Assembly: GCA_013824085.1 (NCBI GenBank)
Contig: PNNF01000017.1
Coordinates: 1 to 52,794, forward strand
Length of the DNA stretch: 52,794 nucleotides
Source of the DNA: Chlorobiaceae bacterium
GTDB taxonomy: Bacteria > Bacteroidota > Ignavibacteria > Ignavibacteriales > Ignavibacteriaceae
Reading direction: 5' to 3'
Part shown: piece after piece, positions 13,833 through 30,389 of the stretch
How the letters are laid out: each line of letters begins with the position of its first letter
Position numbering within the stretch: the stretch's first letter is position 1
Position numbers and translations under genes: made by a program
The notes under the pieces: generated by a model
The model's database searches: none
Seen by the model: the letters and a program-made list of their open reading frames with translations, nothing else
What the model was told of the DNA's origin: nothing

Positions 13833-15461
13833 TTGAAAGCATATCTTTTAAGTTTATTCAATTCAACTTCAGAAAAATTAAACTACTTGAATGAAATAAA
13901 TCTTACTTTTGAAATTCCTAAAAATTTAGAACACGGCGATCTCTCTTCAAATGTTGCAATGCTCTTAACAAAAAGTCTAAGAAAAAATCCTCGACAAATA
14001 GCAGAAGAAATAATTTCAAATTTTGAACTTGATAAAGATGTTATCTCTAAAGTTGAAATAGCTGGACCAGGGTTTATAAATTTTTTCTTTTCAAAAAATT
14101 ATGTAGCAACAATTGTTAAAAATATTTTAAGTAATGAAAAAGATTTTGGTAAATCAAAAAAATATTTTGGCAAGAGAGCAAATGTAGAATTTGTTTCAGC
14201 AAACCCAACGGGACCCTTGACAGTTGGGCACGGCAGAAATTCAGTCATAGGAGATACTTTTGCAAATCTTCTTGAAGCAATTGGATATGAAGTAGATCGA
14301 GAATATTATTTTAATAACGCTGGCAGACAAATGCGTGTGCTTGGTGATTCCGTAAAGTTACGATATTTGAATTTGCTCGGAAAAGATGTAGTCTTTCCTG
14401 AAGATTATTATCAAGGTGAATACATCAGAGATATTGCACAGAGCTTAGTTAATGATTTTGGTGAAAAGTTAATCGATGAAAATCCTGAAGGAATTTTTAA
14501 AGAGAAAGCTGAAAAAGAGATATTTTATGAGATTGAAAAAACTCTTAAAAGACTCGGAATATTTCATAAGATTTTTTATAACGAACATACTCTTTACGAA
14601 AGCGGAAAAATTGATTCGTTGTTAAACACATTCAAAGAAAAAAATCTAAGCTACGAAAAAGATAATGCAGTTTGGCTGAAACTTTCTGAAATGGGAAATG
14701 ATCAGGATAAAGTTATCGTAAAGAACACAGGCGAACCAACTTATCGTCTTCCCGATATTGCATATCATATTACAAAATATGAACGAAATTATGATCTGAT
14801 TGTAGATCTCTTTGGCTCTGATCACGCAGCGACTTATCCCGATGTGCTCGCAGGACTAAAAGCACTCGATAAGGACATTAGCAAAATGAAAGTTTTAATT
14901 CATCAGTTCGTAACTATTACTCAACACGGTGAAGTTGTTAAAATGTCAACGCGAAAAGCAAATTATATTACGCTCGATGAGTTGATAGATGAAGTTGGAG
15001 TTGATGTTGTGAGATATTTTTTCAATATGAGAGCAATTAATACTCACATGAATTTTGATATCGAACTTGCAAAAAAACAATCAGATGAGAATCCAGTTTT
15101 TTATCTTCAATATGCTCACGCAAGAATTTGTTCCATCTTAAGAATGACTGAAGCTGAAGGAATTAAACTATCAATTGAAAATCTTAATTTGTTAATTTCA
15201 GACGAAGAACAAAAGCTGCTAAAAAAATTAAGTTTCTTTGAAGAAGAAATATTGCAGAGCGCCGAAAATTTTGAACCGAACAAAGTCTGTTCTTACTTAG
15301 AAGAATTAGCAGCAGCGTTTCATAAATTTTATACTTTTTGCAGAATTATTGGAGTGGAAAAAAACTTATCTGAAGCGCGTTTGGCTTTGGCTTGTGCAAC
15401 AAAAATTGTTCTGTTGAATGGATTAAAAATTCTTGGAGTTTCTGCTCCAGAAAAAATGTAA
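13833..15461 (+). CDS. argS: Arginyl-tRNA synthetase
   Basis: A 542-residue class I synthetase charging tRNA-Arg. An N-terminal Add1 domain (1-85) precedes the catalytic core with SANPTGPLTVGHGRN (HIGH-type signature, H133-N136) and KMSTRKAN (KMSKS-type, about residue 370). The C-terminal DALR anticodon-binding domain (about 425-542) ends in NGLKILGVSAPEKM, the standard terminus. TTG start with AGGAG 8 bp upstream (GCTAGGAGTATCTC). It follows rsfS closely and converges with comF, whose stop is only 2 bp away. Confidence 0.96.
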   Translation: MKAYLLSLFNSTSEKLNYLNEINLTFEIPKNLEHGDLSSNVAMLLTKSLRKNPRQIAEEIISNFELDKDVISKVEIAGPGFINFFFSKNYVATIVKNILSNEKDFGKSKKYFGKRANVEFVSANPTGPLTVGHGRNSVIGDTFANLLEAIGYEVDREYYFNNAGRQMRVLGDSVKLRYLNLLGKDVVFPEDYYQGEYIRDIAQSLVNDFGEKLIDENPEGIFKEKAEKEIFYEIEKTLKRLGIFHKIFYNEHTLYESGKIDSLLNTFKEKNLSYEKDNAVWLKLSEMGNDQDKVIVKNTGEPTYRLPDIAYHITKYERNYDLIVDLFGSDHAATYPDVLAGLKALDKDISKMKVLIHQFVTITQHGEVVKMSTRKANYITLDELIDEVGVDVVRYFFNMRAINTHMNFDIELAKKQSDENPVFYLQYAHARICSILRMTEAEGIKLSIENLNLLISDEEQKLLKKLSFFEEEILQSAENFEPNKVCSYLEELAAAFHKFYTFCRIIGVEKNLSEARLALACATKIVLLNGLKILGVSAPEKM

Positions 15462-15462
15462 C

Positions 15463-16143
15463 TTAAGGAAGGCCCACGGAAACTGCATAAATATTGGCTG
15501 CTCCATTTTCATTTAATATTTTCGCACATTCTTTTATTGTCGAACCGGTTGTAATTACATCATCAACTATACAAACATTTTTCCCTTTAATCAACTTTAC
15601 ATTCCTTATTTCAAATGCTTCTCTTACATTCTCTTTTCTTTCGAGAGAATCGAAATTTGTTTGACTTGGTGTAAATCTAATTCTTTTCAATAGAGTTTTG
15701 TCATATTTACTTTTGAGTTTTTTACTCAATCCTTTTGCAATAAAATCAGATTGATTGTATCCTCTTTCAGCTTGCTTTAATGAGTGAAGTGGAACTGGTA
15801 GAATCAAATCAATTTTAAATTCCCTTCGTGTTAATATTTTATCGCCTAATAATTCTCCCAGAAAAATTCCTGTCAGAAACATCTTTTCATATTTTAATTT
15901 ATGAATCAAGAGTTGAATTGTATTTTTTTCGTGGAATAGAAAAGGACTGAAAAAATCTTTTATTACATTTTCAGAAGCAAATTTTTTTTCAAATTCACTT
16001 ATAAGATATTCATCTGAAGTTTCGCCCATTGAGTTCAAACAATTTTTACAAACGATGTTTAATTCTGGAGTAAGTTTGGTGGAACACGATTGGCAGAAGC
16101 GGGGGAGAAGCAAATCTAAAAAAGAATTGATAAGCAAATTCAT
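15463..16143 (-). CDS. comF: ComF-family amidophosphoribosyltransferase-like protein
   Basis: 226 residues. A Cys4 zinc-finger-like N-terminus (C17-x2-C20, C32-x2-C35) is followed by a phosphoribosyltransferase fold with the PRPP loop VDDVITTGST (193-202). ComF is required for natural transformation, acting at the cytosolic side on incoming single-stranded DNA. The open frame extends 13 codons further upstream, but ATG at 16143 is the right start: it lies 5 bp after the VWA-type stop codon, and that same junction is repeated at 19.84 kb. The gene is intact; its original upstream partner is now a fragment (16149-16403). Confidence 0.92.
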   Translation of the reverse strand: MNLLINSFLDLLLPRFCQSCSTKLTPELNIVCKNCLNSMGETSDEYLISEFEKKFASENVIKDFFSPFLFHEKNTIQLLIHKLKYEKMFLTGIFLGELLGDKILTRREFKIDLILPVPLHSLKQAERGYNQSDFIAKGLSKKLKSKYDKTLLKRIRFTPSQTNFDSLERKENVREAFEIRNVKLIKGKNVCIVDDVITTGSTIKECAKILNENGAANIYAVSVGLP

Positions 16144-16372
16144 AATAATTAAAGCATTCCTTCGCGCTTTCTTAAGAACCATTCAAGCGAAAAAAATAAA
16201 ATTATAAAAAACAAAATCCATTCATTCCTGCTTAGATAAATTTCTTTCATCTCAATTTTTTCTTTAACACCTTTTTGATTTAAGGATTTTACTATTTCAA
16301 AAATTTCTGAATACTGATCATTGTAGAAAAATTTTCCATCAGCTAAATTAGCTAATTGCTTCATCATTTCTA
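16130..16372. repeat. Left direct repeat flanking the type III PKS cassette
   Basis: This segment aligns with 19830-20072 at a constant offset of 3,700 bp. Positions 16130-16338 differ from the other copy at about 9 of 209 sites, including an unbroken identical block from about 16250 to 16337. Similarity fades between 16339 and 16372. It contains the first 14 nt of comF, the 5-bp gap, the VWA stop codon and the last part of the VWA coding sequence. Confidence 0.9.
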
Positions 16373-16403
16373 TTTGCTGTTGCAGTTTTAATCTTTTAAT
16401 CAT
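16149..16403 (-). pseudogene. 3' fragment of the VWA membrane protein gene (duplicate)
   Basis: An 84-codon frame whose last 70 or so residues (from QLANLADGKFFYNDQYSEIF to the end REGML) are nearly identical to the C-terminus of the 712-residue protein encoded at 19849-21987. It keeps the FFIILFFSLEWFL membrane helix but lacks the VWA domain and all other parts. Its ATG overlaps the stop of the decayed GroES-like gene (TGATG), so it could still be translated as a short membrane peptide. I treat it as a junction scar left when the cassette entered the VWA-comF operon. Confidence 0.85.
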
Positions 16404-16779
16404 CAGATTCTAAAATCATCATTTCTGATTAGCAATAATATTGCAGAGTTAGGTACAATTAAAAATTTTTCTTTTTCAAATTCTATTTCAAACGCTTCTT
16501 TTCTCAAAAATATTGCCAGATCCCCATCTTTGCTTGGAGTGGAATATATTTTACTTGATCTGAATTTCCTTTCCAGGATTCATCCTCATTTTGGGCTGAT
16601 GTTGCATACCCAGTTCCAACTTTAATTACATATCCGCTTTGAATTTTTTCCTTTTTAGAAACACCTGCAGGCAAGTATAATCCACTATTAGTTTTATTAG
16701 TATCTTCTTGAGGCCTGATGAATACTCTATCACCTGCAACAATAAACTTTTGAAGGTTTTTAATATTTACGTTCTTTAT
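16403..16779 (-). pseudogene. Decayed GroES (Cpn10)-like gene
   Basis: Reading the minus strand gives a GroES-type fold in two frames. The first half has FIVAGDRVFIRPQED, SGLYLPAGVSKKEK and GYVIKVGTG, ending near YIPLQA. After a single-base loss in an A-run (plus-strand 16529-16531) the second half continues KDGDLAIFLRKEAFEIEF and FLIVPNSAILLLIRND to a TGA at 16403-16405. The expected start position (16777-16779) reads ATA, not ATG. Two defects mark it as a pseudogene unless the frameshift is a sequencing error. It lies 44 bp after the FAD oxidoreductase stop, in the same direction, as a fourth cassette gene. It resembles the longer GroES-family proteins of Bacteroidota-type genomes rather than the groEL partner. 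Confidence 0.72.
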
Positions 16780-16823
16780 TTTTTTTTATTAAATGATTGA
16801 TTCCATCCAAGTATAAAAATTCT

Positions 16824-17984
16824 TTAAGTAGTTTTAGTACTTCTGGTAAACTTAATTAAATATGGAATAATTGAAGGATATCTTTTCGCAATGCCAAAAC
16901 CCAATTTTCGTGATTTTCTGTTTAAAATTATGCCTTGAATAATTTTTGCAGTAGAGAGTCTTTTATTAAATACATTTTCATATTGCTTTTTGTAATTCAA
17001 ATATATTTTATCACGATGAATTGTATCCAGATTATATGGTTTTATAACTTCATAGAGAAGTTTTGATGATTCCATTGCCATTCCAATTCCATCCCCTGCT
17101 AAGGGGGAAATAACACGAGCTGCATCACCTACCATAATAATTCCATTTTCGATTACTTTCCTGTATCCAAAATATATATTACCCGTCCCGTAAATATTTA
17201 CAGTTTTGATATATTCAATTGCCTCATTTGAAAAAACTGACTGAAAATGACTGTTTGATTTTATTACCTCAATTAATCTTTCGCGTGATGGAATTTTGGA
17301 GTGCTTCCGGTTTTCAAGAAAACAGACTGTCATATCAGTATCGCTTACTTGATTCATTCCACAATAAAGTTCATCACCAGTATAAATTCTAATCTCTTCA
17401 CTAAACGAACTTTCCAACAGATAAACAGGCAAATGAAATTTTACCCCATTTAAGTAAGACTTTTCATTAACAAATCCTCTCTTCAATTTTTTGTCTAATA
17501 TATTTTGTTTACCGTAAGCGGCGATCACTAACTTGGATTTGATATTTATAATTTGCCCTGAACTATCTTCAATTATAGAATCAAATTCAGATCCTGTTTT
17601 TATTGTAGATATGACCTCAGCAGGTTGGGCGACGTGTACATTTACTGATTTTGCTTTTTCCAATAATATAGAATCAAATACAGAACGTTTCATAGCATAA
17701 GCATCAAATTTTAGATCCGATTTTAATTCTTTTCCAGATGCATCAATAGCCCTGAATGAATTTAGCTTGTTAGGTTTCTGAGATATAAATTCATCAAAAG
17801 CCTTTACATCTTTCAAAATATCAATTACTTCTTTAGAAAGAAATTCACCGCACAAAGTTTCTCTGGGAAACGGTTTTTTCTCAACTAATGTAATATCAAA
17901 ACCTAACTTAGAGAGATATAATGCGGTTGTTGATCCAGCTGGCCCTCCTCCAATAATCAGGATTTCGGTTTCAAGGTTTTTCAT
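16824..17984 (-). CDS. FAD-dependent oxidoreductase, geranylgeranyl-reductase/PHBH type
   Basis: A 386-residue flavoprotein. The N-terminal dinucleotide fold has GGGPAGS (12-18) and VEKKPFPRETLCGE (34-47); the second FAD contact GDAARVISPLAGDG is at 286-299. This pattern is shared by geranylgeranyl reductase-like enzymes and aromatic hydroxylases. In type III PKS clusters such flavoproteins hydroxylate or reduce the aromatic or alkyl product. The substrate here is inferred, not known. The ATG overlaps the methyltransferase stop (ATGA). A cluster role is well supported by coupling to the PKS and methyltransferase. The last residues (TRSTKTT) are followed at once by the decayed GroES-like gene. 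Confidence 0.88.
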   Translation of the reverse strand: MKNLETEILIIGGGPAGSTTALYLSKLGFDITLVEKKPFPRETLCGEFLSKEVIDILKDVKAFDEFISQKPNKLNSFRAIDASGKELKSDLKFDAYAMKRSVFDSILLEKAKSVNVHVAQPAEVISTIKTGSEFDSIIEDSSGQIINIKSKLVIAAYGKQNILDKKLKRGFVNEKSYLNGVKFHLPVYLLESSFSEEIRIYTGDELYCGMNQVSDTDMTVCFLENRKHSKIPSRERLIEVIKSNSHFQSVFSNEAIEYIKTVNIYGTGNIYFGYRKVIENGIIMVGDAARVISPLAGDGIGMAMESSKLLYEVIKPYNLDTIHRDKIYLNYKKQYENVFNKRLSTAKIIQGIILNRKSRKLGFGIAKRYPSIIPYLIKFTRSTKTT

Positions 17985-18640
17985 TTTTTAATTACAATCA
18001 TCCATCTGAATGCCCACTTTTTTTTGATCACAATATTAGAAAAGCTTTCAGTTGAGAGGAGTTTAATTAATTCGGTTTTTGTAAATCCTCGCTTAACCGA
18101 AAGAGGCGCATCATTTTTTACCATCTCACTTTTAGAGAAGAGAAATGTGAGAGTTTTTATTCCCCACAATGCAAGAAAAGATCTTTGAAGATCGTTGATG
18201 ATAATCCCCTTCTTACATATTCTTAAAAACTCTTTGAGCAATATTTGAATCTGTTCTTCCGTAAAATGATGAAGAAAAAGTGCTGCATGAATAATATCAC
18301 AGCTTTCATTTTTGAATGGAAGATAGAATGCATCTGAATTAATTTTGCTTAATGAATTTTTAGTGCTTTTTAATGCGCGAAAGTTTTTATCGATTGAAAG
18401 TATTTTTAGATTACCAAATTTTCTTTTTGCTGCAATTAAATTATCTGAAGAACCTGAACCGATATCCAGAATATTTAATCCATGATTCTCAGTACCAATA
18501 AAATATTTTAATGCAGTTTTTGTTGTTGATATACCACCAAGATACTTGTTGATTACTTTCAATTCTTTTAAAGCCGCATCAATTCTTTCATCAAGAATTG
18601 AAAAATCATCCATTATTTCAGTTTCATAAGATCGATTCAT
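17981..18640 (-). CDS. Class I SAM-dependent methyltransferase of the PKS cassette
   Basis: 219 residues with SAM motif I ILDIGSGSSDN (57-67), an acidic strand end SIDKN about 20 residues later, ALFLHHF, and a C-terminal NDLQRSFLALWGIKTLTFLF...DAPLSVKRGFTKTEL segment typical of methyltransferases beside type III PKS genes. It probably O- or C-methylates the polyketide. The ATG follows the PKS stop directly (TAGATG) and its own stop overlaps the FAD oxidoreductase start, so the three are strictly coupled. The protein looks complete. Confidence 0.88.
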   Translation of the reverse strand: MNRSYETEIMDDFSILDERIDAALKELKVINKYLGGISTTKTALKYFIGTENHGLNILDIGSGSSDNLIAAKRKFGNLKILSIDKNFRALKSTKNSLSKINSDAFYLPFKNESCDIIHAALFLHHFTEEQIQILLKEFLRICKKGIIINDLQRSFLALWGIKTLTFLFSKSEMVKNDAPLSVKRGFTKTELIKLLSTESFSNIVIKKKWAFRWMIVIKK

Positions 18641-19726
18641 CTAAACCACTTTAAATACAACTAGCTCCATAGTTAAGCCGGGACCGAAAGCTATTGCACA
18701 TAAATAATCATCACTTTTTAGTTCAACATTTTCTAAAAAATTTTTAAGGACAAACAGAATAGAAACGGAAGAAAGATTCCCAAAATTTCGCAATACTTCG
18801 CGCGATGGCTTCAATTGCTCATCTGAAAGCGTAAGTCCATTCTGCAATGAATCTAAAATTGCTCTGCCACCTGGATGTAATGCCCAGTGCTTTATTTGCG
18901 AAATGTTCATTCCATTTTGCGCTAATATTTCCTTTGCTCTTGGTGTAGCAGAGTTTAATATTATTTTGGGGAGTTCTGATGAAAGCATCATTTCAAATCC
19001 GTTATTGCCAATTTTCCATCCCATAAACTTTGCTGAATCTTCAAACAGGAATGACTCTGCAAATTGTATTTCAAGTTTCCTTTTAGCAGGTAAAGTTTTT
19101 TTAGAAAAGAAGGCCGCAGCAGCACCATCAGAAAAAATCATATTTGCAAGAATATTATCGCGCGTTGGTTCTGTTTGAAGATGAAGACTGCAAAGTTCAA
19201 CTGAAATCATTAAAACATTTTCATTACTGTTTATTTTCATTGCCTCCCAAACAGAATTGACTCCCACTAAAGCAGCAGCACAACCCATAAAACCAATGTT
19301 AGTCCTTTTTACACTTGGCGAAATATTAAATTCTTTGATTAGTTCATAATCTAATCCGGGAGCAAAAAATCCAGTGCACGAAATAGTAATTAGTCTATCA
19401 ATACTGCTAAAATCTATTTCGTTCTTCTCTGCGAGCTCCTTTACAGCTTGTTTTGTTAAATGAATAGACCATTTTTCGTATTCAGTCATTCGGGTTTTGG
19501 TATCGGGAGAAAAATGCACTCCATCCTTTGTAAATAATTTATCTAATGCATTTTCTTCACCATCTTTTATAACAAAAAAACGATGATCAATACCTGATTG
19601 ATTTGCAGCCATATCGATCATTCTGCTTATTGCGGCTGTTCCTGCCATACGATTTTTTAGTTCATTTGCAGCATAACTTTGTGCAACTTTAAAGGGCGGA
19701 GACGCTGTTGCAATATCTATTAACAT
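18641..19726 (-). CDS. Type III polyketide synthase (chalcone/stilbene synthase family)
   Basis: A 361-residue homodimeric ketosynthase. The catalytic triad is intact: Cys117 in ISCTGFFAPG, His284 in WALHPGGRAIL and Asn317 in FGNLSS. Other family blocks are MGCAAALVG, SDGAAAAFF and the end AFGPGLTMEL. It condenses malonyl-CoA units on an acyl-CoA starter to give pyrones, resorcinols or phloroglucinols. The open frame reaches a TTG at 19786, but ATG 19726 has AGAGGA just upstream and gives the usual N-terminus. It heads a three-gene coupled operon bounded by direct repeats, which points to acquisition as a unit. Confidence 0.93.
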   Translation of the reverse strand: MLIDIATASPPFKVAQSYAANELKNRMAGTAAISRMIDMAANQSGIDHRFFVIKDGEENALDKLFTKDGVHFSPDTKTRMTEYEKWSIHLTKQAVKELAEKNEIDFSSIDRLITISCTGFFAPGLDYELIKEFNISPSVKRTNIGFMGCAAALVGVNSVWEAMKINSNENVLMISVELCSLHLQTEPTRDNILANMIFSDGAAAAFFSKKTLPAKRKLEIQFAESFLFEDSAKFMGWKIGNNGFEMMLSSELPKIILNSATPRAKEILAQNGMNISQIKHWALHPGGRAILDSLQNGLTLSDEQLKPSREVLRNFGNLSSVSILFVLKNFLENVELKSDDYLCAIAFGPGLTMELVVFKVV

Positions 19727-19829
19727 ATTTCCTCTGTTTAGTTTACTTAATAACATGAAGAATTGAAGATTCGTTTCAAATTTCAATTTACTTGTATAAA
19801 TTTGATTAGATATTTTTATAAAGAGTTAA

Positions 19830-19843
19830 ATAAGCAAATTCAT
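19830..19843 (-). pseudogene. First 14 nt of comF, orphaned
   Basis: ATGAATTTGCTTAT here is identical to the comF start at 16130-16143, then the sequence diverges and a stop follows at once (MNLLI-stop). It marks where comF began before the cassette separated it from the VWA gene. Confidence 0.8.
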
Positions 19844-20072
19844 AATAATTAAAGCATTCCTTCGCGCTTTCTTAAGAACCATTCAAGCGAAAAAAATAAT
19901 ATTATAAAAAATAATATCCACTCATTCCTACTCAGATAAATTTCCTTCGACTCAATTTTTTCTTTAACACCTTTTTGATTTAAGGATTTTACTATTTCAA
20001 AAATTTCTGAATACTGATCATTGTAGAAAAATTTTCCTTCCGATAAACTTGCTAATTGAAGCATCAATTCTG
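19830..20072. repeat. Right direct repeat flanking the type III PKS cassette
   Basis: Counterpart of 16130-16372. This copy is continuous with the full-length VWA gene (its last 75 codons), followed by the 5-bp gap and 14 nt of comF. Confidence 0.9.
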
Positions 20073-21987
20073 AGTTAAGTGTTTTATCAATCAACTCAAT
20101 TTCAACGTCGCCAATATTAAATCTACCTTCATCTCTTCCAATTTCATTATTCAGATAAACTGCTGAACCCGAAAAAGAAAAATCGCCCGGAGTGCGTGGA
20201 TTATAAATGCCTCTATAAATTCCATTTCCGATATGAGTAAGAAAAATTTCATCCTCTACATTTTTTGATTTTACTCTTACCTTAACTTCAGCATTTGCAA
20301 TTGCGTTAAAACTTTCATCAAACACATCTGCGAAAAATTCTACTGACTCACCAAGCGAATAAAATTTTTGTGAAGTTCTTATCGAAACTTGCTCTTTTTC
20401 TACTGAAGCATTTAGCCACTTCACAGAATTTAAAATAAAATTGTCAAACAACTCTAAGCGTGATGGAGCTTTTTGCAATTTCCATTTCCAAATGTCTGAA
20501 CTTAAAACAGCGACTGATCGTTTGCTTCCAAGTTTTCTCGAAACAATTAAAGGCGAATTAATCAAGACATTATTGATTTTTAGAGATGCCAACACTTGAG
20601 TTTCTGGCTTTGGAATAAAATTAAAATTTGGTCTCAACGTCGGAGGAAGCGAATTCCATTCAGTAACCGTGCCCGCTTTCATCATTGGATTTGCAGCTTG
20701 TTCACTTGATACATTTGGTTGCACCTCACTAATACCAAAATTTTGATTCGAAATTTCAAACGGCATTTCGCTTCTTAAGTAATTAAATTTTTGAATATCA
20801 AGACTTGAACCGACAAGAATGAAAAAAGGTTTTGAATTATTTTCAATCTCATTTTTTATTAAATCAAGTAGTTCATCAGAGGCAACAGCAGTTGGGAAAT
20901 GAATCAAAAAAATAATGTCTGCAGAGTCAATTGCTTTTTTAGAAAATGAATTGTTTAAAAATCTGTTCGGCGCAATTTGAACAATCTGATCAACAACTAT
21001 GTTCGTATCAAGCGCTAAAGAATTTTTAATGAAAACTAAATCAGTTGAAGGAGTTCCTCCAACAAGTAGAACTTTTATTTTATTGCTTAATACATCAATG
21101 AAAAAACTTTTGTTATTATTCTCCTTTGAAAATTCTCCCGCTAATTCTTCAACTTGAATTGAAAGTTTTTTTTCTCCCTTGCTCTTTGGTTCATATGTGA
21201 ATTCAACATTCTGAAAATTCTGTTCAAGAGTAAAAATTTTATTTTCAACAAGAATATTTTCTTCAAATAATGATGCTCGGATTTGCTTTCCTGAATAACC
21301 TTTGTTCAATATCGACGCGCTTATTGTGGTTGTAGTTCCTGCATAAATTATTTCATTATAGAAAATAGTTGAGATACTCACATCATTTCTCTTTGATGAA
21401 TCTCCTAATCCAATTGTAAAAATGGGAGCAGTCATATTGTCAGCAAGATAAAGTGGAGTGCTTCCATCAGTAATGACGCCGTCGCTTAATAAAATTATTG
21501 ATGAGATATTTTTTTCAAATTTGTCAAGCGAACTAAATGTATTGAACAAATTAGTTCGAGTTTCTGAAAATGTAATTTTGGCGAGAGAATCTTTTGAAAT
21601 CGATTTTATCTCTTTACCAAAAATGTAGAACTCAGAGTTCGCAGTTAGATTATTTTGCTCAAGCTCATCCAAAAATTTATTTGTAATCTCAATTCTATTA
21701 AATCCCTCATTAATATTCATCGACTTTGAGTTATCAATTAAAACAATATTGACGGGCTTAAGTGAAATAGCGCGTTCAAAATTTATTTTTGGATCAAAGA
21801 TTAAAAATAAAATAAGGAGTAGAGCAATTGCTCGAAAAAAAATTAAGAGAAACTTAAATGATTTGCTGACAATCGGGATAGTATATTTATAAATAAAAAA
21901 AGTATAAACACCAATGAGTGCGACTAAGCTGATTAGCCAAAACCAATTAATATTAAAATGAACCGAAAAGTTATCGTATCCAAACAT
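19849..21987 (-). CDS. Membrane-anchored von Willebrand factor A protein
   Basis: 712 residues. Two N-terminal transmembrane helices (about 14-33 and 44-64) precede a VWA domain with MIDAS motif D85-N-S87-K-S89 (LIDNSKSM), SSIILLSDGVITDG and IFTIGLGD. A CARDB/Ig-like region (about 210-300), a glutamine-amidotransferase-like fold with KVLLVGGTPSTDLVF (about 310-450), another beta domain, and one C-terminal helix (FFIILFFSLEWFL) follow. The layout matches large BatA-type VWA proteins common in Bacteroidota; function unknown, perhaps envelope sensing or assembly. The ATG overlaps the surE stop (TAATG). A second copy of the last 75 codons lies at 16.15-16.40 kb. Confidence 0.85.
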   Translation of the reverse strand: MFGYDNFSVHFNINWFWLISLVALIGVYTFFIYKYTIPIVSKSFKFLLIFFRAIALLLILFLIFDPKINFERAISLKPVNIVLIDNSKSMNINEGFNRIEITNKFLDELEQNNLTANSEFYIFGKEIKSISKDSLAKITFSETRTNLFNTFSSLDKFEKNISSIILLSDGVITDGSTPLYLADNMTAPIFTIGLGDSSKRNDVSISTIFYNEIIYAGTTTTISASILNKGYSGKQIRASLFEENILVENKIFTLEQNFQNVEFTYEPKSKGEKKLSIQVEELAGEFSKENNNKSFFIDVLSNKIKVLLVGGTPSTDLVFIKNSLALDTNIVVDQIVQIAPNRFLNNSFSKKAIDSADIIFLIHFPTAVASDELLDLIKNEIENNSKPFFILVGSSLDIQKFNYLRSEMPFEISNQNFGISEVQPNVSSEQAANPMMKAGTVTEWNSLPPTLRPNFNFIPKPETQVLASLKINNVLINSPLIVSRKLGSKRSVAVLSSDIWKWKLQKAPSRLELFDNFILNSVKWLNASVEKEQVSIRTSQKFYSLGESVEFFADVFDESFNAIANAEVKVRVKSKNVEDEIFLTHIGNGIYRGIYNPRTPGDFSFSGSAVYLNNEIGRDEGRFNIGDVEIELIDKTLNSELMLQLASLSEGKFFYNDQYSEIFEIVKSLNQKGVKEKIESKEIYLSRNEWILFFIILFFSLEWFLRKREGML

Positions 21988-22760
21988 TAAGGATTAAGTT
22001 TTATATTTTCAATTTTCCAATTATTCATTACATCATAAGTTTCGTAGTCAGTCAAATCAAAATGAACTGGGGTTACGGAGATGTAATTATTTTTCACAGC
22101 AAATTGATCAAATGTGAGATCATGATCCAAGTCAATAAAATTTCCAGTAAGCCAATAGTATTCTTTTCCATAAGGATCAATTCGTTTCTCGTAAACGTCA
22201 TCCCACTTAGATCTACCTTGTTTGGTGAGCATCACTCCTTTAATAAATTCTGCTGCTACATCTGGAATATTTATATTTAAGAGAGTCCCTTTTTTTAGTC
22301 CATTCTTATAAACTTCATCAACAATTTTTTTTGCAAAATTTCCTGCTTCAAGAAATCGTGTGCAATTATGACTCGTCAATGAAATTGCGATTGCAGGAAA
22401 ATCCATAATCGCAGCTTCACGTGCCGCTGAGACTGTTCCCGAATAAACAATATTTGTCGCAGTGTTCGAGCCGTGATTAATTCCTGACACAACTAAGTCC
22501 GGCGGCTCAGGCATAATATTTCTGATTCCCATCTTTACACAATCAGCAGGAGTTCCATCAACTCCATAGCCAAACAACTTTCCATTTTTGTTTACTTCCA
22601 CTACTCGCAATGGAACTTTCATTGTAATAGCATGACCAACTGCACTCTGTTCATACAAGGGTGCAACAACTGTAACGTCTCCAATTTCTTTTAGAGCGTT
22701 CACTAAAAAATTAATTCCTTGTGAATAAATTCCATCATCATTACTTACTAGAATACGCAA
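21987..22760 (-). CDS. surE: 5'/3'-nucleotidase SurE
   Basis: A 257-residue metal-dependent phosphatase acting on nucleoside monophosphates and short polyphosphates. Metal site SNDDG (6-10), DLVVSGINHGSNTATNIVYSGTVSAAREA with the metal ligand Asn, and GTPADCVKMG are all typical. The start is TTG at 22760 after AAGGTG; the next Met is deep inside the family N-terminus MRILVSNDDGI, so TTG is needed. It is the first gene of the ancestral surE-VWA-comF transcript, with a TATATTTGCA box 20-29 bp upstream. Confidence 0.95.
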   Translation of the reverse strand: MRILVSNDDGIYSQGINFLVNALKEIGDVTVVAPLYEQSAVGHAITMKVPLRVVEVNKNGKLFGYGVDGTPADCVKMGIRNIMPEPPDLVVSGINHGSNTATNIVYSGTVSAAREAAIMDFPAIAISLTSHNCTRFLEAGNFAKKIVDEVYKNGLKKGTLLNINIPDVAAEFIKGVMLTKQGRSKWDDVYEKRIDPYGKEYYWLTGNFIDLDHDLTFDQFAVKNNYISVTPVHFDLTDYETYDVMNNWKIENIKLNP

Positions 22761-29957: not shown

Positions 29958-30389
29958 ATGTTAAAACAAATGTTCGTTTTTTTATTTGTAGCATTATTTA
30001 GTATTTCAATTTCTGCGACAGAACCAATTAATGCAAAAAAAGAATGCTGTAAAAAAGATAAAGCTTGTGAATCAGTAAAAGATTCAACTAATGTAAAATC
30101 TTGTTCAATCGATAAGAAAGCTTCAGACTGCAAGAAAAAATGTGATGCTAAAAAAACTGGCAAAAAATGTTGTGGAAGTGAAAAATGTGATGGTAAAAAA
30201 ACTGACACAAAATGTTGTGGAACCGAAAATTGTTGTGGAACTGGAAAATGTGAAGGTATAAAAGCTGACAAAAAATGTTGTGGAAGTGAAAAATGCGCAA
30301 CAAAGAAAGCTGAAGGAGACGCTAAAAAACCTTGTTGTCCAAAAGACAAACCTAAAGTAGAAGAAGCTCCTAAAACTCAACCTAAATAA
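29958..30389 (+). CDS. Secreted, extremely Cys/Lys-rich metallothionein-like protein
   Basis: 143 residues: signal peptide (about 1-20, SISISATEP), then a low-complexity region with 19 Cys, many as CC pairs, in loose repeats such as KKCCGSEKCDGKK, TKCCGTENCCGTGKCEG and KKCCGSEKCATKK. The tail is Pro/Lys/Glu-rich. It has no fold signature I recognise. The spacing suggests thiolate metal clusters, as in metallothioneins, but exported. Paired with the YHS-type protein and ending at a strong terminator, it forms a two-gene metal-binding unit. Antisense frames here are shadows of the repeats. Confidence 0.75.
   Translation: MLKQMFVFLFVALFSISISATEPINAKKECCKKDKACESVKDSTNVKSCSIDKKASDCKKKCDAKKTGKKCCGSEKCDGKKTDTKCCGTENCCGTGKCEGIKADKKCCGSEKCATKKAEGDAKKPCCPKDKPKVEEAPKTQPK

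Follow-up and report, generated by a model that had tools for sequence, protein, structure and literature searches.

How did a type III polyketide synthase (PKS) operon come to lie between VWA and comF, two genes that are neighbours in related genomes? The locus falls in a 52,794-nt stretch of contig PNNF01000017.1 (GCA_013824085.1; the whole stretch is referred to as the window) from a member of a little-studied bacterial group, for which the initial annotation had proposed that two copies of the VWA/comF junction bracket a three-enzyme PKS operon, as either a single crossover of a circular donor or a duplication with insertion would leave. The best overall explanation, which we rate slightly above an even chance, is that a donor-derived cassette arrived with a diverged VWA/comF junction and was joined to the chromosome there, likely through one homologous crossover.

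A duplicated junction and the genes between its copies

A repeat search confirmed the two direct copies (16130-16371 and 19830-20071; 242 nt at 93% identity, which rules out a chance repeat) and their spacing of exactly 3,700 nt. Each consists of the VWA 3' end including the stop codon, a 5-nt gap, and the initial 14 nt of comF, and the window holds no other direct repeat of at least 50 nt except a short array at 30137-30313 (14-nt seed). In alignments, the innermost ~13 nt of the left copy match donor DNA (see below), so the host-derived repeat is about 16130-16358 and 19830-20058 (~229 nt, with 14 differences between the copies). Donor DNA abuts this repeat directly on the left, and on the right at most ~25 nt matching neither clearly lie between. 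An intact comF (start at 16143) to the left and the intact 712-aa VWA gene to the right were found as initially annotated; the arrangement is one of foreign DNA between direct copies of one target segment with both neighbours whole. The protein matched no Pfam or NCBIfam family, and the name VWA is that of the initial annotation; it has a match in 58 of the 59 genomes searched, this one included. Within this genome, the VWA search returned the two junction copies and no further one; a weak blastn match on contig C22 (L003; E 6e-05, 57/82 columns identical, 12 gaps), considered as a third VWA-like source, was taken as chance.

The PKS, methyltransferase (MT), and FAD-dependent oxidoreductase (FAD) genes are adjacent on one strand, with intact reading frames and in the same direction as the host operon (Table 1). 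The three-enzyme operon therefore stands as described, but the initial annotation overlooked a fourth member, a broken GroES-like gene. Based on its Chal_sti_synt_C and 4b0n matches, the PKS is a member of the chalcone/stilbene-synthase superfamily. The GroES remnant carries two lesions and, compared with the Ignavibacterium-type locus L069, has 82% nucleotide identity, dN 0.063, and dS 1.35; two further GroES genes are present elsewhere in this genome. Donor similarity continues on either side of the genes, with 34/43 nt identical to L069 at 16372-16414 (which includes the last bases of the GroES-like gene) and, in the PKS upstream region, 66–77% identity to donors over the aligned part, the outermost 15–25 nt being without clear alignment.

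The open reading frames listed for the cassette are the PKS, MT, FAD, GroES remnant, and VWA fragment. As initially reported, no transposase or integrase was found among ORFs of at least 100 aa between the repeats, nor among those of at least 25 aa at 16000-17000. A foreign base composition was considered and rejected, as the GC content of the cassette is ordinary (0.319 compared with 0.314 for the window), with 33% of equal-size windows as high or higher. The product is probably a methylated, oxidised alkylresorcinol-type (phenolic) lipid, a prediction made because of operons with the same gene content. Streptomyces srsABC is one operon with these three enzyme classes.

Table 1. Features of the VWA/comF locus and the inserted cassette (window coordinates)
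Feature	Coordinates	Strand	Evidence or remarks
argS	13833..15461	+	ORF; convergent with comF, conserved block, beside comF in many relatives
comF-family phosphoribosyltransferase, intact	15463..16143	-	Pribosyltran; TIGR00201 comF E 1.4e-29, below its cut-off
Left repeat copy: final 69 VWA codons and stop, 5-nt gap, 14 nt of comF start	16130..16358	-	Repeat search extends to 16371
Donor-derived stretch 3' of GroES-like gene	16359..16402	-	Alignment to L069
GroES-like (Cpn10) pseudogene, donor type	16403..16776	-	Lacks its start codon; a single frameshift; no further stop
FAD-dependent oxidoreductase	16824..17984	-	FAD_binding_3 / geranylgeranyl-reductase-like
SAM methyltransferase	17981..18640	-	Methyltransf_25; best NCBIfam PRK06202, below cut-off
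Type III polyketide synthase, 361 aa	18641..19726	-	Pfam Chal_sti_synt_C 2.2e-24; solved type III PKS 4b0n 8.3e-45
PKS upstream region	19727..19829	-	Gene-proximal part aligns with donors
Right repeat copy: VWA 3' end within intact gene, 5-nt gap, 14 nt of comF	19830..20058	-	Repeat search extends to 20071
VWA, 712 aa, intact	19849..21987	-	ORF
surE, conserved block	21987..22760	-	Family matches, relatives

Empty target, home site, and donor clade

VWA and comF lie next to each other, with no cassette in between, in 34 of 34 further genomes examined; the distance from the VWA stop to the comF match was -34 to 754 nt (24 genomes measured). The PKS-MT-FAD-GroES genes are resident elsewhere in Ignavibacterium-type genomes. 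The home site of the PKS-MT-FAD operon there is flanked by a glycosyltransferase/methyltransferase pair (GT/UPF-MT) and a second GroES-like gene, and only some genomes have it occupied, the site being empty in the others. Because the 34 genomes lack the cassette at VWA/comF and its home site lies elsewhere, the view that it is an insertion is well supported by this sequence comparison, which was the comparison that the initial annotation had called for. The possibility that VWA/comF is an insertion hotspot was checked in nine relatives with larger gaps and found no support; four contain an unrelated ORF (134–179 aa), and in none of the nine did VWA or a cassette gene have a match at E 0.1 or was a copy of the flanks present.

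Phylogenetically, the cassette places the window within the donor clade (support 97/93), with an AU p of 0.035 against a position outside that clade, although the group was defined only once the tree had been inspected. AU tests restricted to VWA did not reach significance (p 0.189 and 0.12), and for that reason three more core genes were added. The resulting core-gene tree (LG+G4, a simpler model; argS missing in 10/25 rows and surE in one) groups the window with G033 (97/98), with AU p values of 0.0156 and 0.000465 against grouping with the donors. As the cassette and core trees conflict, the cassette appears to have been acquired from outside, from an Ignavibacterium-type donor that is a distant cousin. 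The operon is shown to be exchanged among Ignavibacterium-type bacteria, and here it sits outside its home site.

A search around the other cassette loci found bracketing direct repeats of at least 45 nt in 0/16 (direct repeats are present at L058, L061, and L090, not bracketing the cassette), so the case in the window looks like one event rather than a mobile family. A recent plasmid source was rejected, as PKS relatives in 189 plasmid records were all <60% identical, with Deinococcus at the top.

How the cassette may have arrived

As the comparisons show, ~3.45 kb of donor DNA was added, comprising the PKS, MT, FAD, and GroES-like genes, the PKS upstream region, and ~40 nt beyond the GroES stop. 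Under the preferred explanation, it came in on a molecule that most likely also bore a slightly diverged VWA/comF junction. One homologous crossover within the junction would have joined a circular or end-joined chimeric molecule to the chromosome; an alternative route would rely on homology for one end only, with an illegitimate joint at the other. The outcome would be an added cassette, a duplicated junction, and a partial copy of VWA, with both host genes whole. The GroES-like gene, redundant with the two GroES genes elsewhere, has decayed. The DprA and ComEC families are present in this genome. No genome with the diverged junction was found for this species, whose genus is represented by one genome.

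The most serious rival, possible though distinctly less probable, is an illegitimate insertion with target duplication, in which a staggered break or template switch doubled the ~229-bp junction and the copies diverged later, in patches created by recombination or gene conversion. The ends of the cassette offer the simplest geometry for such an event, given the direct contact of donor DNA with the left repeat and the few extra nucleotides on the right. What bears on the choice is how the copies differ. Within VWA, 12 codons differ with only four amino-acid changes (dN 0.030, dS 0.296, dN/dS 0.10), and the differences are mostly synonymous and clustered (P 0.0019, gap variance), whereas a functionless fragment should gain more amino-acid changes; a fully neutral model was rejected at P 0.0001 in simulations with assumed mutation weights, and a model with the left copy alone neutral was marginal (P 0.05). 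That there are only four amino-acid differences also speaks for target duplication, as does their nature, since the left-copy residues A and M occur in 0/24 relatives and are what relaxed constraint would give (N occurs in 6/24 and D in 1/24; the right-copy residues at the same four sites occur in 4, 1, 2, and 0 of 24). The adjacent GroES remnant is little changed, which leaves little neutral time for the copies to diverge, unless the GroES-like gene stayed in use after insertion. As far as these sequences can tell, the synonymous, clustered differences marginally favour a single crossover with a diverged junction over target duplication and neutral drift. The first of the two mechanisms in the initial annotation thus fits the geometry and the differences, and the marginal one-copy result leaves the second standing.

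It is improbable that the arrangement is an artefact in which a cassette on another molecule (e.g., a circle with the junction) or in another strain was joined via the repeat. The assembly has 75 contigs, of which the window is one, and the copies share identical stretches of 87 and 70 nt, more than a short assembly word, but the copies can be told apart by their own differences and each is flanked on either side by unique sequence, the cassette resembles the window in GC content, and a 242-nt repeat would be short relative to paired reads. Even less credible, and very improbable in our judgement, is a relocation of this genome's own cassette from the home site to VWA/comF without interspecies transfer. 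On contig C14 the genome does have the home site without a PKS operon, as a move would leave; the site, however, still holds its native GroES (58–66% amino-acid identity to four donor genes), which is unlike that of the cassette, and relocation does not accord with the conflict between the trees.

If insertion by a crossover in the junction is true, the repeats keep both neighbours intact, and ordinary recombination could release the cassette and restore the operon. More broadly, and only tentatively, a biosynthetic operon may have moved between genera without a recombinase, through a natural insertion-duplication that used a diverged version of the recipient's own operon junction as its address.

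Comparison with known systems

The event is a tidy example of an already known kind of gene transfer. To our knowledge, and without a systematic search, natural scars of such insertions have seldom been connected with an empty target as well as with the home site of the donor DNA. Here, all of these are known, namely the empty target, the home site of the cassette, and the donor clade, so that the sequence of a second strain would make the mechanism testable. Narrow literature searches, by which absence from print is not shown, yielded few titles for a natural case of such an insertion and, for Ignavibacteria with a type III PKS, nothing apparently related.

The same three enzyme classes share an operon in the alkylresorcinol/hierridin operons described from Planctomycetota (PMC10896814) and cyanobacteria (PMC8086630), and the PKS-MT-oxidoreductase order is also known from these accounts as hidC>hidA>hidB. 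In the Ignavibacterium-type genomes examined here, unlike those operons, a GroES-like gene is linked, and the product here is predicted.

Additive, recombinase-free insertions are known from laboratory crosses, as described for circular non-replicative DNA in E. coli conjugation experiments (PMC3240628), where single crossovers left duplications of 109–950 bp in 14 sequenced clones. Such Campbell-type integration likewise places foreign DNA between direct copies of a short target, whereas the event here is natural and 14 of ~229 nt differ between the host-derived copies. Homology-facilitated illegitimate recombination, for which the E. coli test predicted a deletion of target DNA (PMC3240628), has been put forward for effector modules of Vibrio cholerae (PMC5361080), which as described there are also foreign modules at a host locus with one homologous anchor and no integrase. 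The Vibrio model has the old effector displaced but retains the old immunity gene; at VWA/comF, in contrast, both host genes remain intact and there are two copies of the junction. Duplications also arise when Streptococcus pneumoniae is transformed with DNA that is partly repeated, giving merodiploids (PMC3784515), though the duplications reported there are tandem and span ~100–900 kb between repeats, unlike the short duplicated junction that flanks the cassette here.

An insertion at the VWA/comF junction

The two copies of one operon junction, 3,700 bp apart, described in the initial annotation were borne out by a reading of the sequence at 14500–21500 and a repeat search, which returned a 242-nt direct repeat (93% identity). 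Read along the minus strand, both copies take in the 3' terminus of the gene for a 712-aa protein with the stop codon, then a gap of 5 nt, then the opening 14 nt of comF. For the 712-aa protein, which had zero matches to Pfam and NCBIfam models, we retain the label VWA on the presumption of the initial annotation. The VWA fragment of the left copy lies within an uninterrupted frame of 84 aa whose end is 5 nt short of comF and which preserves the comF translation start context. With a 14-nt seed, there were no other direct-repeat families of at least 50 nt in the window except a short array in a Cys- and Lys-rich, probably exported protein with imperfect repeats; this protein is preceded by one of 93 aa whose CPVTG...CCKRC motif resembles a metal-binding YHS-type domain.

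Coordinates of the cassette and other features of the window
Feature	Position	Strand	Remarks
Left repeat copy	16130-16371		beside intact comF
VWA-fragment frame	16149-16403	-	84 aa
FAD-dependent oxidoreductase (FAD)	16824-17984		contiguous with PKS, MT; frame open
SAM methyltransferase (MT)	17981-18640		contiguous with PKS, FAD; frame open
Type III polyketide synthase (PKS)	18641-19726		contiguous with MT, FAD; frame open
Right repeat copy	19830-20071		spans 3' end of intact VWA gene
Cys/Lys-rich protein	29958-30389	+	143 aa
Repeat array	30137-30313		

The three enzyme genes are followed by a Cpn10/GroES-like gene (Pfam 3.6e-9 on a 55-residue piece) that has lost its start codon and carries one frameshift but no further stop, with 13 amino-acid differences over 123 codons relative to contig L069 of a donor-type genome. 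Donor-like DNA extends beyond its stop (34 of the 43 nt of 16372-16414 equal L069), and alignment with the donors places the start of the VWA fragment at ~16358. At the other edge, the region upstream of and near the PKS aligns with four donors at 66–77% identity over the aligned part, with 15–25 nt adjoining the right repeat lacking a clear assignment.

A VWA match was present in 58 of the 59 genomes searched, the window's included. In all 34 other genomes whose VWA loci were examined (29 and a further five), VWA is followed on the same strand by comF with no cassette between them, and the cassette is therefore an insertion; an uninterrupted operon in relatives is what the initial annotation named as support for this. 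Spacing between the VWA stop and the match to comF ranged from -34 to 754 nt (24 of the 34 genomes). Of the nine larger gaps inspected, four contain an unrelated ORF of 134–179 aa: a 134–138 aa ORF (..SIDEQH..), presumably hemerythrin-like, in G051, G052 and G055 (L131, L136, L137) and a different 179-aa ORF in G046.

Horizontal origin and home site

Full-length PKS relatives with at least 52% identity occur in 16 of 58 other genomes, with weaker matches only in four more. Identity was 81–88% in four contigs titled Ignavibacterium or Ignavibacteriales (L067, L068, L069 and L070, the last from G011) and 61% in a fifth. A tree of the joined PKS, MT and FAD (20 rows; G010 PKS only, G003 without FAD) placed the window within G011/(G059, G060, G061) with support 97/93; constraining those four to group without the window, a grouping defined post hoc, gave an AU p of 0.035. 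A core tree of joined VWA, surE, argS and comF (25 rows, LG+G4; argS absent in 10, surE in one) placed the window as sister to G033 (97/98) and rejected its grouping with the donors (p = 0.0156 with G011, 0.000465 without); with VWA by itself the tests did not reach significance (p = 0.189 and 0.12). In path length, the window lies 0.17–0.35 from the four donors for PKS, whereas for VWA the nearest of the 19 other rows is 1.56 away. Insertion and horizontal origin of the cassette are well supported, and we hold them with high confidence.

In the four donors (G011 read from L057) PKS-MT-FAD-GroES is preceded by a glycosyltransferase, accompanied in some cases by a UPF methyltransferase. Among cassette loci examined, the operon is linked to this GroES gene in ten genomes (G003 on two contigs) and lacks it in the stretch read in eight; the G010 contig ends next to the PKS. 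The window's genome has such a home site on contig C14, with GroES beside the methyltransferase and glycosyltransferase and no PKS operon, and 12 of 29 other GroES loci read (L093-L121) likewise have one or both neighbours without the operon. The native C14 GroES shares 58–66% amino-acid identity with the four donor genes; the cassette remnant shares 82% nucleotide identity with L069. The C14 gene is a second, longer GroES-like gene (117 aa, L066:5192-5545; 120–126 aa in L057, L058, L068 and L069) with matches at E < 1e-20 in 55 of 59 genomes, often adjoining a glycosyltransferase and a methyltransferase; a stronger Cpn10 match on C64 of the window's genome is presumably the canonical GroES.

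Methylated alkylresorcinols are the product predicted here, by analogy with operons of matching gene content for which their synthesis has been demonstrated or suggested. Of six Planctomycetota PKSs expressed alone (PMC10896814), four yielded alkylresorcinols and two, both taken from species that lack an operon of this kind, yielded none; when the Gimesia maris PKS was combined with its own MT and oxidoreductase, methylated forms were made too.

Origin of the repeat

Across the 69 VWA codons shared by the repeat copies, 12 differ, eight synonymously and four nonsynonymously (dN 0.030, dS 0.296). With assumed mutation weights, an all-neutral model expects ~10.6 amino-acid changes (P = 0.0001), while neutrality of the fragment only gives P = 0.05. 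The differences are clustered (87-nt identical run, P = 0.014; gap variance, P = 0.0019). The few amino-acid changes and the clustering favor a junction copy that would have diverged as a functional gene in a relative, then entered with the cassette. Against this reading, the left-copy residues A and M are seen in none of 24 relatives, although its N and D are seen in 6/24 and 1/24 (right-copy counterparts, 2/24 and 0/24). The single crossover suggested in the initial annotation is the best-fitting mechanism but falls short of proof, and we lean towards it only slightly. That an assembly or strain artefact explains the arrangement appears unlikely.

The locus is of moderate interest as a well-documented natural case of an already known phenomenon, and comparable ectopic insertions occur in pneumococcus. 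Family matches to DprA and ComEC make DNA uptake by this genome plausible, though they are silent on this event. In an E. coli study (PMC3240628), a duplication PCR product was obtained from 56 of 60 clones, where homology-facilitated illegitimate recombination would be expected to give a deletion, and duplications of 109–950 bp in 14 sequenced clones were ascribed to a single crossover of a circular molecule. The repeat described here, at 229–242 nt, is of a length inside that range.
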